Both the position numbers and the translations under genes were made by a program. The notes under the pieces are model-generated. The model was given only the letters and a program-made list of their open reading frames with translations. It did not search any database and was not told the DNA's origin. This document shows, in pieces, positions 16,355 through 20,843 of a DNA stretch of 47,972 bases. Numbering within the stretch: position 1 is the stretch's first letter; each line of letters starts with the position of its first letter. This stretch comes from Prochlorococcus sp. AG-315-C08 (lineage in GTDB: Bacteria; Cyanobacteriota; Cyanobacteriia; PCC-6307; Cyanobiaceae): the NCBI GenBank assembly GCA_003284185.1, contig QBWB01000004.1, positions 1 through 47,972 on the forward strand. The letters are read 5' to 3'.

Positions 16355-18517
16355 TTAACGAAGTTTACTAAAATCAGCAATAATTAAGGATTGATTCCTA
16401 AGGATTGATAAAAGATTAATTCTGTTGTTTCTTAGATTAATATCATCTGTCATTACCATAACACTTTCTTCTCCATCAAAGAAATTGGATAAGATATCAG
16501 CACTAGAGGCAAGGCCATCAGCCAACAACTTATATTTAATACGGTCAATATTTATTGCTAAAGGCTTTAATTGCTCTAGAACATTAAACATTTGAATTTC
16601 ACAATCCTTCTCAAATAGAGACTTATCAACAAAATTCAAAGGATCTATCTGATCGTTTGAGATAGAGCTTTTAGATGCCAACTTAGAGGCCCGAGTCACA
16701 ACAGCTTGCAACAATTTAAGTGTATTATTTGTCCTCATATCCATTAATAATGACGCACGGAAATCAACATCTGTTGGATCATCTAATATTTTTGATGTTG
16801 AGGTTGTATCTCCTGCAATTGCCTGAATAATATCAAACTCAACCTCTTTATCTTCTAATAAGCTAATAATTCTTTGACGAAAGAATTCCGTTAACTCACA
16901 AGTAAGAACACTGATGTCAATAGACATTGAAGGGAATAATTTATTCCAATAGATTAGTGAATCTTTGATTACTTGATTGATATTTAATTTCCAATCTTTT
17001 TTCCACAAAATCAATAATATTCCATTAGCAGCCCTTCTTAAGGCATAAGGATCAGATGAACCGGTAGGCCTTTCACCTTTAGCAAAAATGCTAAAAAGCA
17101 ACTCAAAACGTTCAGCTAATGAAACAGCATTGCCAAGATTATTTGAGGGGAGAGAGTCTGCCACACCTTTAGGCTTGTAGTGTTCCAATACTCCAAGGCA
17201 AATATCTATTGGTTCGCCTTCATGAAGCAAGTATTTAGATCCAATAATTCCTTGTAACTCTGGAAATTCATCAACCATATTACTAACTAAATCATGTTTA
17301 GAAAAATGAGCAACTTTAACAGATTTATCAATATCCTCTTGAGTAAATTTAAATTTGGTTGACAGTAATTCTGTAAGCCACTTAATACGATTTACACGAT
17401 CATATAAAGATCCTAATCCTTCAGCAAAAGTAACATCCTGGAGAGTCTCAATACGTGAAGAGCTACTAATTAATAAATCTGACTTTATAAAAAATGAAGC
17501 ATCTGAGAACCTTGCCTTTAAAACTTTTTCATTTCCTAAAATAATACTTTGTTTGGCTGAAGATAATCCATTACTAATGCACAAAAAACTCGGAAACAAG
17601 ATATTTCTTGAGTCAAGTGATAATGGATCAAAATCAACATTTACTTTATATAAAGGGATGTACCTTTGATGAACCTTCATTACAGTAGACAAAACCTCAG
17701 GAGGTAAGTCGAGAAAAGATTCATCAAAACTTCCATGTATAAGTAAAGGAGACTCAACTAAATCTGTCAGCTCATTTAAAAGTTGATCAGACAAATCTGG
17801 AAAAAACTTATTATTTATTTCTTGATTAGCAACTAAATCATTGATAAACAAAAGGCGTCTCTGCCTGTCAACAATAACTCCAGCACCCTGCAATTGATCT
17901 TCATAAGTTTTTGCATTGTTTATATGAAATACTGATCCATGCAACCTATGCGGTCTCGAAATATTACCAATTTCAATTTCGGGGTCGCATCCCGAAATTG
18001 TAAAAGGTAAAATTTCAGAATCAAGCAAAGAAACAATCCAACGGATAGGTCTCGAAAAGCGAAATTCACCTTTCCCCCATCTCATGAACCTTCGACCTTT
18101 AATTTGACTGATCCAGTTAGGTAAATATTCAGACAACAAAGATACGACTGGCCTTCCTTTCTCTATTAATTTAGCGAAAACAAATGAACCCTTTGGCGTT
18201 TCTCGAATCTCTAATACATCAGGGAGAAGATCAAATCTTTTAGCAAAACCGATTGCTGCCTTTGTAGGCTTTCCTTCATGAAAAGCTTGAGAAACAGGAG
18301 GTCCTTTTCGTTCTTCAATTTTATCTTCTGAGAAAGGCGCAATCCCTTCAATCAATAATGAAATTCTCCTGGGGGTAGTCGTAACCCTGATTTCACTATA
18401 TTTTATTTGAGCAGAGTTCAAATCATTATTTACATTTAACTCTAGTTGGGAAATAACAGACTTAGCTAAATCTGCTGGAAGCTCCTCAGTACCAATTTCT
18501 AAAAGATAAGTAGACAA
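16355..18517 (-). CDS. glyS: glycyl-tRNA synthetase beta subunit
   Basis: Track ORF; LLEIGTEELPA, TPRRISLLI, RKGPPV, FARPIRW-like FRFSRPIRWIVSL, DPYALRRAANGI. Confidence 0.96.
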   Translation of the reverse strand: MSTYLLEIGTEELPADLAKSVISQLELNVNNDLNSAQIKYSEIRVTTTPRRISLLIEGIAPFSEDKIEERKGPPVSQAFHEGKPTKAAIGFAKRFDLLPDVLEIRETPKGSFVFAKLIEKGRPVVSLLSEYLPNWISQIKGRRFMRWGKGEFRFSRPIRWIVSLLDSEILPFTISGCDPEIEIGNISRPHRLHGSVFHINNAKTYEDQLQGAGVIVDRQRRLLFINDLVANQEINNKFFPDLSDQLLNELTDLVESPLLIHGSFDESFLDLPPEVLSTVMKVHQRYIPLYKVNVDFDPLSLDSRNILFPSFLCISNGLSSAKQSIILGNEKVLKARFSDASFFIKSDLLISSSSRIETLQDVTFAEGLGSLYDRVNRIKWLTELLSTKFKFTQEDIDKSVKVAHFSKHDLVSNMVDEFPELQGIIGSKYLLHEGEPIDICLGVLEHYKPKGVADSLPSNNLGNAVSLAERFELLFSIFAKGERPTGSSDPYALRRAANGILLILWKKDWKLNINQVIKDSLIYWNKLFPSMSIDISVLTCELTEFFRQRIISLLEDKEVEFDIIQAIAGDTTSTSKILDDPTDVDFRASLLMDMRTNNTLKLLQAVVTRASKLASKSSISNDQIDPLNFVDKSLFEKDCEIQMFNVLEQLKPLAINIDRIKYKLLADGLASSADILSNFFDGEESVMVMTDDINLRNNRINLLSILRNQSLIIADFSKLR

Positions 18518-18672
18518 AAAATTTTCCTTATGTTCTAAGCAAGATTAGATCTAAATTTGATTAACTTCTACATTCTGTGTCCTAGAAAAAATTTAACACT
18601 CTATTAATCCAAACTTGGTCAAGTATTTTTGATTTGAACAAATAGGCACTAGTTAACACGCAAAATGATACA

Positions 18673-18696
18673 GTGTAGGTACCGGTGTAGGTACCA
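18673..18696 (+). repeat. Perfect 12-bp tandem duplication GTGTAGGTACC(G/A) immediately upstream of the sir start
   Basis: GTGTAGGTACCG at 18673-18684 followed directly by GTGTAGGTACCA at 18685-18696; each copy contains the palindrome GGTACC. Confidence 0.9.
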
Positions 18697-18698
18697 TT

Positions 18699-18899
18699 TT
18701 GCCTAAAATCATAACGATACCAGGAAGATCAGGTTTTTACATCAGGGTTGCGGTACCAAGAGGGACATTAAGAGATGCTTTGGGTACATGTGATGTAGTA
18801 AAAAAAATTGGTAATACAAAAAAAGAAGCTGAACAAAACATAAATTCGGCAGAAATCGCAATAAAACAAAAATTCGACGAGAAGCTACGAGAAGAAGAA
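18699..18899 (+). other. Domain within the sir ORF: tyrosine-recombinase N-terminal (arm-type / DUF6538-like) DNA-binding-domain-like segment
   Basis: Translated LPKIITIPGRSGFYIRVAVPRGTLRDALGTCDVVKKIGNTKKEAEQNINSAEIAIKQKFDEKLREEE. The pattern strand(GFYIRVAVP)-helix(LRDALG)-strand(DVVKKIGNT)-long charged helix matches phage integrase N-termini. Recognised by eye, no profile search. Confidence 0.65.
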
Positions 18900-20843
18900 G
18901 TAAAAAAAATCAATAGCTCTTTACCTAGGGGAATCAAGGTTGAAGCAATTGATAATCACAATTCAAAAGAATCCCCAAAAAACATAGAAAAAGATTTAAA
19001 AAATGCTGGATTTAGTAATGCAGCTATCGAAGCACTACTAAATTTCGAAAATAAAGAAAACTCAATTGAAGGAGAAATCGAAGAAAAAGTCCCTTCTCCT
19101 TGCATAGCAATTAACGCTCCTCGAACTAAATTTGAACAATTTAAAGCCGATAGTAATTATTTAAATGAGCCCCTACAAAGTGAATTATTAAATGAAGGTG
19201 ATCATTTTACAAATGACGCTGTTCAACTTCTGAAATTTCATGGTAGCTACCAACAAGATGATAGAGAACATAGAAAAAAAGGTGGAAAAGGTAAAGATTG
19301 GCAAATGATGTTGAGACTTAGAAATCCAGCTGGGTTTGTCCCGGGGCCACTGTTTATTTCATTAGATGATCTCTCTGACCAACTTGGAAATCAAACTCTT
19401 AGGGCAACAACTCGTCAATGCTTCCAAATGCATGGAATAAAAAAAGAGAATATTAAGGAAGTAATAGGAACAATCGTAAGATCAATGGGATCAACTCTTG
19501 CAGCATGTGGAGACGTTAATAGAAATGTAATGGCTCCAGCAGCACCTTACCAAAAAGGAGCTTATCCTGCGGCAAGAAAGTTAGCACTTGACATTGCAGA
19601 TGTTTTATCCCCGAAAGAAGCGGAAAGAACATATCTAGATTTGTGGGTTGATGGCGAAATCAAATATGCAATCAAACCCTCTTCTGAAGTCAAAAAATAT
19701 AGAACAAAACAATTAAATCGAGGAGTATTCAGTGGAGATAAGAAAGAACCTTTATATGGTTCGACATATTTACCAAGAAAATTCAAATGCGCAACTACTG
19801 TCCCAGGAGATAATTCGGTCGACATTCTTACTCATGATATAGGCTTAATGACGTTCACGAATAAGAAAGGAGACTTAGAAGGTTGCAATGTCTATGTCGG
19901 AGGAGGCATGGGTAGAACACATAACTTAGATACTACATTTGCAAGAATAGCAGACCCTATTGGTTTTGTAGAAGGCAAGGATATATTAGAACTGGTTCAA
20001 TCTATCCTCGCTCTTCAAAGAGATTATGGAGATAGGAAAACAAGAAGACATTCCAGGCTTAAATATGTTTTACATGATATGGGTGTTAATTGGTTCAAGA
20101 AACAATTGACAACAAACTATTTTACTAGAAAGATATATAAGTTAAGGCATGAAGTGAAGACAAAACTTGAAGATTATTTAGGTTGGCACAAACAATCTGA
20201 AAGGCTATGGTTTGTTGGCTTACCACTTTTATCAGGTAGGATTAAAGGAGAAGTAAAGAAGGGACTCAGAAATATTGTTGAGAAATATGCATTAGATGTG
20301 CGTTTAACTCCCAACCAAGACTTATTATTATGCAATATAGGAAATTATCAAAAGAATAGTGTAAAGAATGATCTAATTAAAATAGGTTTTATAGATCCAG
20401 GAAACCCGCATCCACTTTTTAGACATGCAATAGCTTGTCCAGCTCTTCCATTATGTGGACTTGCAATGACAGAAGCAGAGCGATTTTTACCAGAACTTTT
20501 AGACCGAATAAACAATCAATTAAAAAGTCTCGGAATCAATAAATCAATTTTAACAAGAGTGACAGGCTGTCCAAATGGCTGTGCGCGTCCATATATGGCA
20601 GAATTAGCTCTTGTTGGTAGTGGTTTAAATCAATACCAACTATGGCTAGGTGGGAGCCGCGATTTAAAAAGGTTAGCAACTCCATACCTACAAAAAATGC
20701 CAATCAATGAGTTAGAAACAACCTTAAAACCTTTATTCCTTAGCTGGAAAAATAATGGAAAGTCAATAAGTCTAGGAGATTATGTAACTAAACTTGGCAA
20801 TGAGAATGTACTTTCCTTGCTGACTTCAAATGCAGCCCCATAA
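18699..20843 (+). CDS. sir: ferredoxin-sulfite reductase with atypical ~142-aa N-terminal integrase-arm-like extension
   Basis: Track ORF (TTG start). From about residue 143 (KFEQFKADSNYLNEPL) it is a complete sulfite reductase, with both cluster/siroheme Cys motifs CPALPLC (C-X5-C) and CPNGC (C-X3-C). Residues 1-142 are not part of the usual sulfite reductase fold. Confidence 0.95.
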   Translation: MPKIITIPGRSGFYIRVAVPRGTLRDALGTCDVVKKIGNTKKEAEQNINSAEIAIKQKFDEKLREEEVKKINSSLPRGIKVEAIDNHNSKESPKNIEKDLKNAGFSNAAIEALLNFENKENSIEGEIEEKVPSPCIAINAPRTKFEQFKADSNYLNEPLQSELLNEGDHFTNDAVQLLKFHGSYQQDDREHRKKGGKGKDWQMMLRLRNPAGFVPGPLFISLDDLSDQLGNQTLRATTRQCFQMHGIKKENIKEVIGTIVRSMGSTLAACGDVNRNVMAPAAPYQKGAYPAARKLALDIADVLSPKEAERTYLDLWVDGEIKYAIKPSSEVKKYRTKQLNRGVFSGDKKEPLYGSTYLPRKFKCATTVPGDNSVDILTHDIGLMTFTNKKGDLEGCNVYVGGGMGRTHNLDTTFARIADPIGFVEGKDILELVQSILALQRDYGDRKTRRHSRLKYVLHDMGVNWFKKQLTTNYFTRKIYKLRHEVKTKLEDYLGWHKQSERLWFVGLPLLSGRIKGEVKKGLRNIVEKYALDVRLTPNQDLLLCNIGNYQKNSVKNDLIKIGFIDPGNPHPLFRHAIACPALPLCGLAMTEAERFLPELLDRINNQLKSLGINKSILTRVTGCPNGCARPYMAELALVGSGLNQYQLWLGGSRDLKRLATPYLQKMPINELETTLKPLFLSWKNNGKSISLGDYVTKLGNENVLSLLTSNAAP

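Follow-up and report, generated by a model that had tools for sequence, protein, structure and literature searches.

The integrase IntS of the KplE1 prophage is autorepressing: it binds arm-type sites near the −10 box of its own gene (PMC2951348). The plastid ferredoxin-sulfite reductase DCP68/SiR binds and compacts DNA and represses transcription (reviewed in PMC4154389). In plastid SiR no added domain is involved, and it is the enzyme itself that attaches to DNA, apparently without specificity. Trigger enzymes, or enzymes with DNA-binding domains, such as BirA, PutA and NadR, use HTH or RHH domains.

The locus described here lies in a window (the whole stretch of DNA that was analyzed) of 47,972 nucleotides from a Prochlorococcus genome that is partial (962 kb, 52% complete) and has relatives named Prochlorococcus sp. 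AG-402-xx and others. The ORF at 18699–20843 consists of approximately 118 tyrosine recombinase residues (an arm-type DNA-binding domain plus linker) joined to a complete ferredoxin-sulfite reductase. Like IntS, whose product binds arm-type sites over its own −10 region, the fused sir gene has the same type of domain and analogous tandem sites at its start, but here an assimilatory metabolic enzyme stands in place of the catalytic integrase, and there is neither an att core nor a recombination function. The fused protein resembles the trigger enzymes (BirA, PutA, NadR; for the evolution of BzdR see PMC3602430) in being a metabolic enzyme with a DNA-binding domain that is predicted to regulate the gene of its own pathway; it differs from them in that the domain is an integrase arm domain, putatively acquired with the cognate type of binding sites. 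Plastid SiR is the same enzyme, is DNA-associated and represses transcription, as is inferred for the fused protein, in which, by contrast, the implicated elements are a separate, acquired domain and a single specific tandem site. Finally, picocyanobacterial recombinases of the DUF6538 type are homologous to the fusion in the arm and linker (residues 1–113) and also carry tandem repeats before the start, but the intact relatives have SAM-like and catalytic domains, and the fusion has neither.

Structure and distribution of the fusion

The sir ORF encodes 714 amino acids from a TTG start. Pfam detected no domain in the extension alone, and its homology was therefore tested with profiles of relatives. 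A profile built only from fused proteins and another built only from intact integrases, i.e. picocyanobacterial tyrosine recombinases of the DUF6538 type (L083, L084, L085, L095 and others), aligned over residues 1–113 with a probability of 99.3% (hhalign, E 8.8e-21). When residues 1–73 were compared with 300 genomes of the family, the matches besides fused sir were ORFs of approximately 410–470 aa and some truncated ones. Phage_integrase was present in all five full-length relatives tested and a Phage_int_SAM_5 match in four, while two of the five matched DUF6538 weakly, below the cut-off, at residues 5–60. In intact relatives Phage_int_SAM_5 and Phage_integrase follow residue ~126, and the fusion lacks both. 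Because the break lies immediately N-terminal to the SAM-like core-binding domain, the captured piece comprises the arm domain and linker. Having no catalytic domain (R-H-R-Y residues), the fused protein is not an integrase.

These comparisons show that residues 1 to ~113–118 are homologous to the N-terminal arm-type DNA-binding domain and linker of integrases; that they bind DNA is inferred. The arm domain occupies residues 1–66 (18699–18896, + strand), the region in which related integrases match DUF6538 weakly. Its AlphaFold2 model has the E-E-H-E-H order expected of an arm domain (E3–5, E13–18, H23–28, E32–38, H41–65; block pLDDT 82–93 over residues 1–60). Foldseek searches of the PDB and BFVD gave no significant match of the extension model to a solved arm domain, and the fold assignment therefore rests on homology. 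The arm is followed by integrase-derived linker helices (residues 67–118; 18897–19052, +), of which the profile alignment reaches residue 113, and by a fast-evolving joint between the modules (residues 119–133; 19053–19097, +). The closest intact arm is that of L084 (53% over 59 aa). No relative was found by tblastn of residues 1–73 in phage records or in a scan of viral contigs, so that the donor integrase is not identified.

The remainder of the ORF (residues 134–714 plus stop; 19098–20843, +) is a complete ferredoxin-dependent sulfite reductase. Residues 139–706 match the NCBIfam sir model TIGR02042 (E 2.2e-217; 722.8 bits, just under the cut-off of 731.5), NF010029 is matched above its cut-off, and residues 137–704 match maize ferredoxin-SiR (5h8v_A). 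With a full-length core and both siroheme/4Fe-4S Cys motifs (CPALPLC and CPNGC), the protein meets the criteria of a ferredoxin-dependent assimilatory sulfite reductase. The ancestral SiR part starts at about residue 133–134 (SPCIA), because unfused sir proteins share SPCIA-N-x4-KFEQFKADS; ordinary sir has no counterpart of residues 1–118.

An earlier sequence-only reading of the window had given this ORF with its coordinates, TTG start and sequence, and had described it as an arm-domain-like module fused in frame to a complete sulfite reductase with both Cys motifs, lacking the core-binding and catalytic integrase domains. All of this held: the reductase is confirmed by the TIGR02042 and 5h8v matches, and the missing domains are present in intact relatives only. 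Its placing of the SiR start at about residue 143 held in part and is corrected to ~133–134, and the integrase-like part, which it proposed to test as residues 1–70, extends to ~113–118. The profile check that it suggested was negative with Pfam on the extension alone and positive by profile-profile alignment to intact integrases (99.3%).

Every complete sir gene found in the genus is fused (at least 26 genomes, closed chromosomes included) and is the sole sir copy; weaker matches of the sir search in the genus are what we take to be nitrite reductase (nirA). Within the genus, the fused genes are 83–85% identical overall, and residues 1–72 of the extension are 81–89% conserved, also in closed one-contig genomes, which excludes a sequencing join or assembly artefact. 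A second genus with the fusion is represented by one genome (G101, isolate AG-404-P15; 67% identity). Among the 53 genera with a sir, no other picocyanobacterial genus (about 50) has the extension; Prochlorococcus-like unfused sir frames are of ~600 aa, and the longer open sir frames of other genera showed no match to residues 1–73. In a tree of the SiR core the fused proteins group together as a single clade (support 99/97), which shows that the fusion arose once. The mean pN/pS was 0.107 for the arm, 0.187 for the linker (0.19 for residues 67–118), 0.61 for the joint and 0.07–0.18 for SiR; purifying selection acts on the arm domain as strongly as on the enzyme. Limitation of the extension to one clade together with purifying selection is as domestication predicts. 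No report of such a fusion was found in the open-access papers searched; subscription papers were outside the search.

The position of the start codon (TTG or GTG; TTG at 18699–18701, +, in the window) is invariant across the aligned species. In most of them an in-frame ATG occurs at codon 114, but it is absent from the window species, L003 and L017. Within codons 1–175 of the window the only in-frame starts are the TTG codons at 18699 and 18780 (codon 28). With no ATG, GTG or TTG from codon 29 to at least 175, ordinary initiation cannot yield the enzyme without most of the extension.

The sequence-only reading had made the same point, locating the first in-frame ATG at 19305 and the only other upstream start at TTG 18780; this held, for the window and for conventional starts. 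Its proposal that a mobile-element fragment had been captured and domesticated is supported by the profile homology, the restriction to one clade and the purifying selection. The survey of sir N-termini across picocyanobacteria that it called for places the extension only in the genus of the window and that of G101, and the sequencing error that it named as a possible refutation is ruled out by conservation in closed one-contig genomes. Its description of a potentially DNA-binding enzyme gains weight from the tandem arm-type-like repeats that it had missed, DNA binding itself not being shown.

Tandem repeats at fused sir and in intact relatives

The divergent neighbor of sir is glyS (16355–18517, −). 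The glyS-sir synteny is the same in fused and unfused genomes, which differ in the intergenic region and in the first sir residues. Neither a tRNA nor an Rfam RNA was found in the window. The fused clade has neither the ancestral sir upstream motif (GCTACGG-like) nor the GTG start region, both being replaced. A TTTCGCTACGGT/TTTAGCTACG-like motif is shared upstream of several unfused picocyanobacterial sir genes (L121–L132), as is a start region with GCCGTGA, and neither is present in the fused clade.

The TTG start is immediately preceded by a tandem repeat, TGTAGGTACC-n2-TGTAGGTACC, whose copies occupy 18674–18683 and 18686–18695 (both +) with a 12-bp period and a variable 2-nt spacer; its full 22 bp read TGTAGGTACCnnTGTAGGTACC. 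AATGATACAGTGTAGGTACCnnTGTAGGTACCAtT is near-invariant across 30 genomes, only the two spacer bases varying freely. The distance from the repeat to the start shows small length differences between species that shift the frame, and in many species the repeat contains an in-frame stop (TAG); the repeat is therefore not coding in most species, although in the window itself the frame is open through it from a TGA at 18666.

A single copy of the repeat 21-mer per genome, always at fused sir, was present in 22 members of the genus and in G101, and none in the other 277 genomes, two of which are genus members with assemblies lacking sir. No second site with up to 3 mismatches was found in six near-complete one-contig genomes. 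Single half-sites TGTAGGTACC elsewhere number 0–2 per genome, near a rough composition-based expectation of ~2, and therefore no wider regulon is claimed.

A −10-like hexamer, TACAGT (18669–18674, +), is kept across the genus, its final T being base 1 of the first repeat copy; the assignment is a sequence-based inference without TSS data. In 7 of 11 genes (fused sir and relatives) TAnnnT ends on base 1 of the first repeat (binomial p 3.6e-6, computed on TA frequency). This shared position suggests that the promoter of the integrase was captured too. GTAGGT within the repeats has a weak Shine-Dalgarno character and, given also the TTG start, a role in translation control remains possible.

The same layout recurs in intact integrases. 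Tandem 12–13 bp repeats (at least 9/10 matches) were present within 45 bp upstream of the start in half of the intact or partial relatives (13/26; combined p 3e-14). The closed genome G002 contains five exact copies of TGGTAGGACC, the unit of its integrase, and all are confined to the two termini of a single ~7-kb element, beside a 21-bp att-core direct repeat. In G211 the unit TGTGGGTACC is found at both element ends with a 41-bp att core alongside, and G261 and G080 also have repeat units at both ends. Repeats at both ends beside an att core represent the layout of arm-type integrase sites. L084, whose arm is the closest to that of SiR, carries TGTAGGTACA, nearly the sir unit, and arm domains that are more alike have more similar repeats (Mantel r 0.54, p 0.0002), a correlation that may partly reflect shared ancestry. 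The repeats at sir are thus very likely arm-type sites, strongly supported by the relatives though without binding data. The other arm and the core site of the parent element are absent at sir, so that one arm only remains; no clear att-core remnant was seen near sir in the window, and one 12-mer with a single mismatch was present near sir in G101.

Proposed autoregulation and rival explanations

We propose that, in the region between glyS and sir of an ancestral Prochlorococcus, the remnant of a tyrosine-recombinase gene that had lost the parts for core binding and catalysis became fused in frame to sir. The arm domain, its tandem arm-type sites and probably the integrase's own promoter (the latter inferred) would have been captured together, replacing the old sir promoter and the first ~10–15 residues. 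Fused SiR would then bind the tandem repeat overlapping its own promoter and start, and repress sir; there are no binding, expression or TSS data, nor evidence that two sites suffice for tight binding. If SiR represses its own gene, negative feedback would set its level. It is speculation that the state of the enzyme (oligomer, siroheme/4Fe-4S loading, ferredoxin docking) or its substrate tunes occupancy. The fusion, its conservation, its single origin and the presence of the sites are shown; capture by sir of an integrase arm domain with its sites, making SiR autorepressing, is the likely and parsimonious reading, with sir inheriting a circuit like that of IntS; in it DNA binding and repression are inferred.

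Two alternatives are unlikely, yet not excluded. In the first, fused SiR is a DNA tether, binding its sites or the nucleoid broadly, with an effect on DNA compaction or SiR localization and not on sir expression. The plant ferredoxin-SiR DCP68, which binds and compacts plastid DNA and represses transcription (PMC4154389), gives DNA association of SiR a precedent. However, there is only one paired site per genome, it is located exactly where sir begins, and its spacing is invariant, which points to a dedicated local target. In the second, selection kept the captured integrase promoter and start region, and the arm domain is a passenger, a folded and harmless N-terminus. Since the ancestral upstream motif and GTG start were replaced, promoter replacement alone could be the functional change, but at the amino-acid level the arm is as constrained as the enzyme (pN/pS 0.107), in contrast to the relaxed joint (0.61), and near-invariance extends to both repeat copies and is not limited to the −10-like box.

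A role in RNA is very unlikely. Here fused SiR would bind its own near-leaderless mRNA, or the repeats would be ribosome-binding sites, in either case with translational control; the repeats do abut the start codon, and GTAGGT is weakly Shine-Dalgarno-like. Against this, the unit recurs in intact elements far from the integrase start, at the opposite end beside the att core, where it is a DNA site, and the orientation and spacing of the repeats match arm-type sites. An artefact of assembly or annotation, with translation starting inside SiR and the upstream frame open by chance, could appeal to the codon-114 ATG of most species and the annotated-type TTG/GTG start, but is all but excluded by the species without that ATG (the window species, L003 and L017), by the absence of ATG, GTG and TTG from codons 29–175 of the window and by a frame that remains open and under constraint throughout the aligned species and in closed genomes.

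Capture with autorepression, our preferred reading, suggests a route by which a mobile element gives a metabolic enzyme a DNA-binding domain, an operator and probably a promoter in one event. We lean, by a narrow margin, towards a bolder version, in which a housekeeping enzyme became its own specific repressor in one step through a cassette of integrase domain, arm-type operator and promoter, possibly forming a switch that senses redox state or siroheme and controls sulfur assimilation in cells that are streamlined and have few regulators. This lineage has very few transcription factors, and in such a setting one can directly test how autoregulation evolves and how sulfite reduction is controlled. 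The old puzzle of DNA binding by plastid sulfite reductase is also revisited.

Apparent integration sites of the related elements

The far ends of elements carrying the relatives are located in or beside the 6S RNA gene (Rfam RF00013; L178:7926-8107, L179:4317-4500, L088:4031-4215, L089:3347-3531). The att-core direct repeat (21 bp in G002, 41 bp in G211) lies inside 6S, and 6S RNA therefore appears to be an integration site for a family of picocyanobacterial elements. Beside the G002 integrase, a small ORF (L178:15490-15864, −) encodes repeated DQRARxDLxxLDQKARxD units of no known function.
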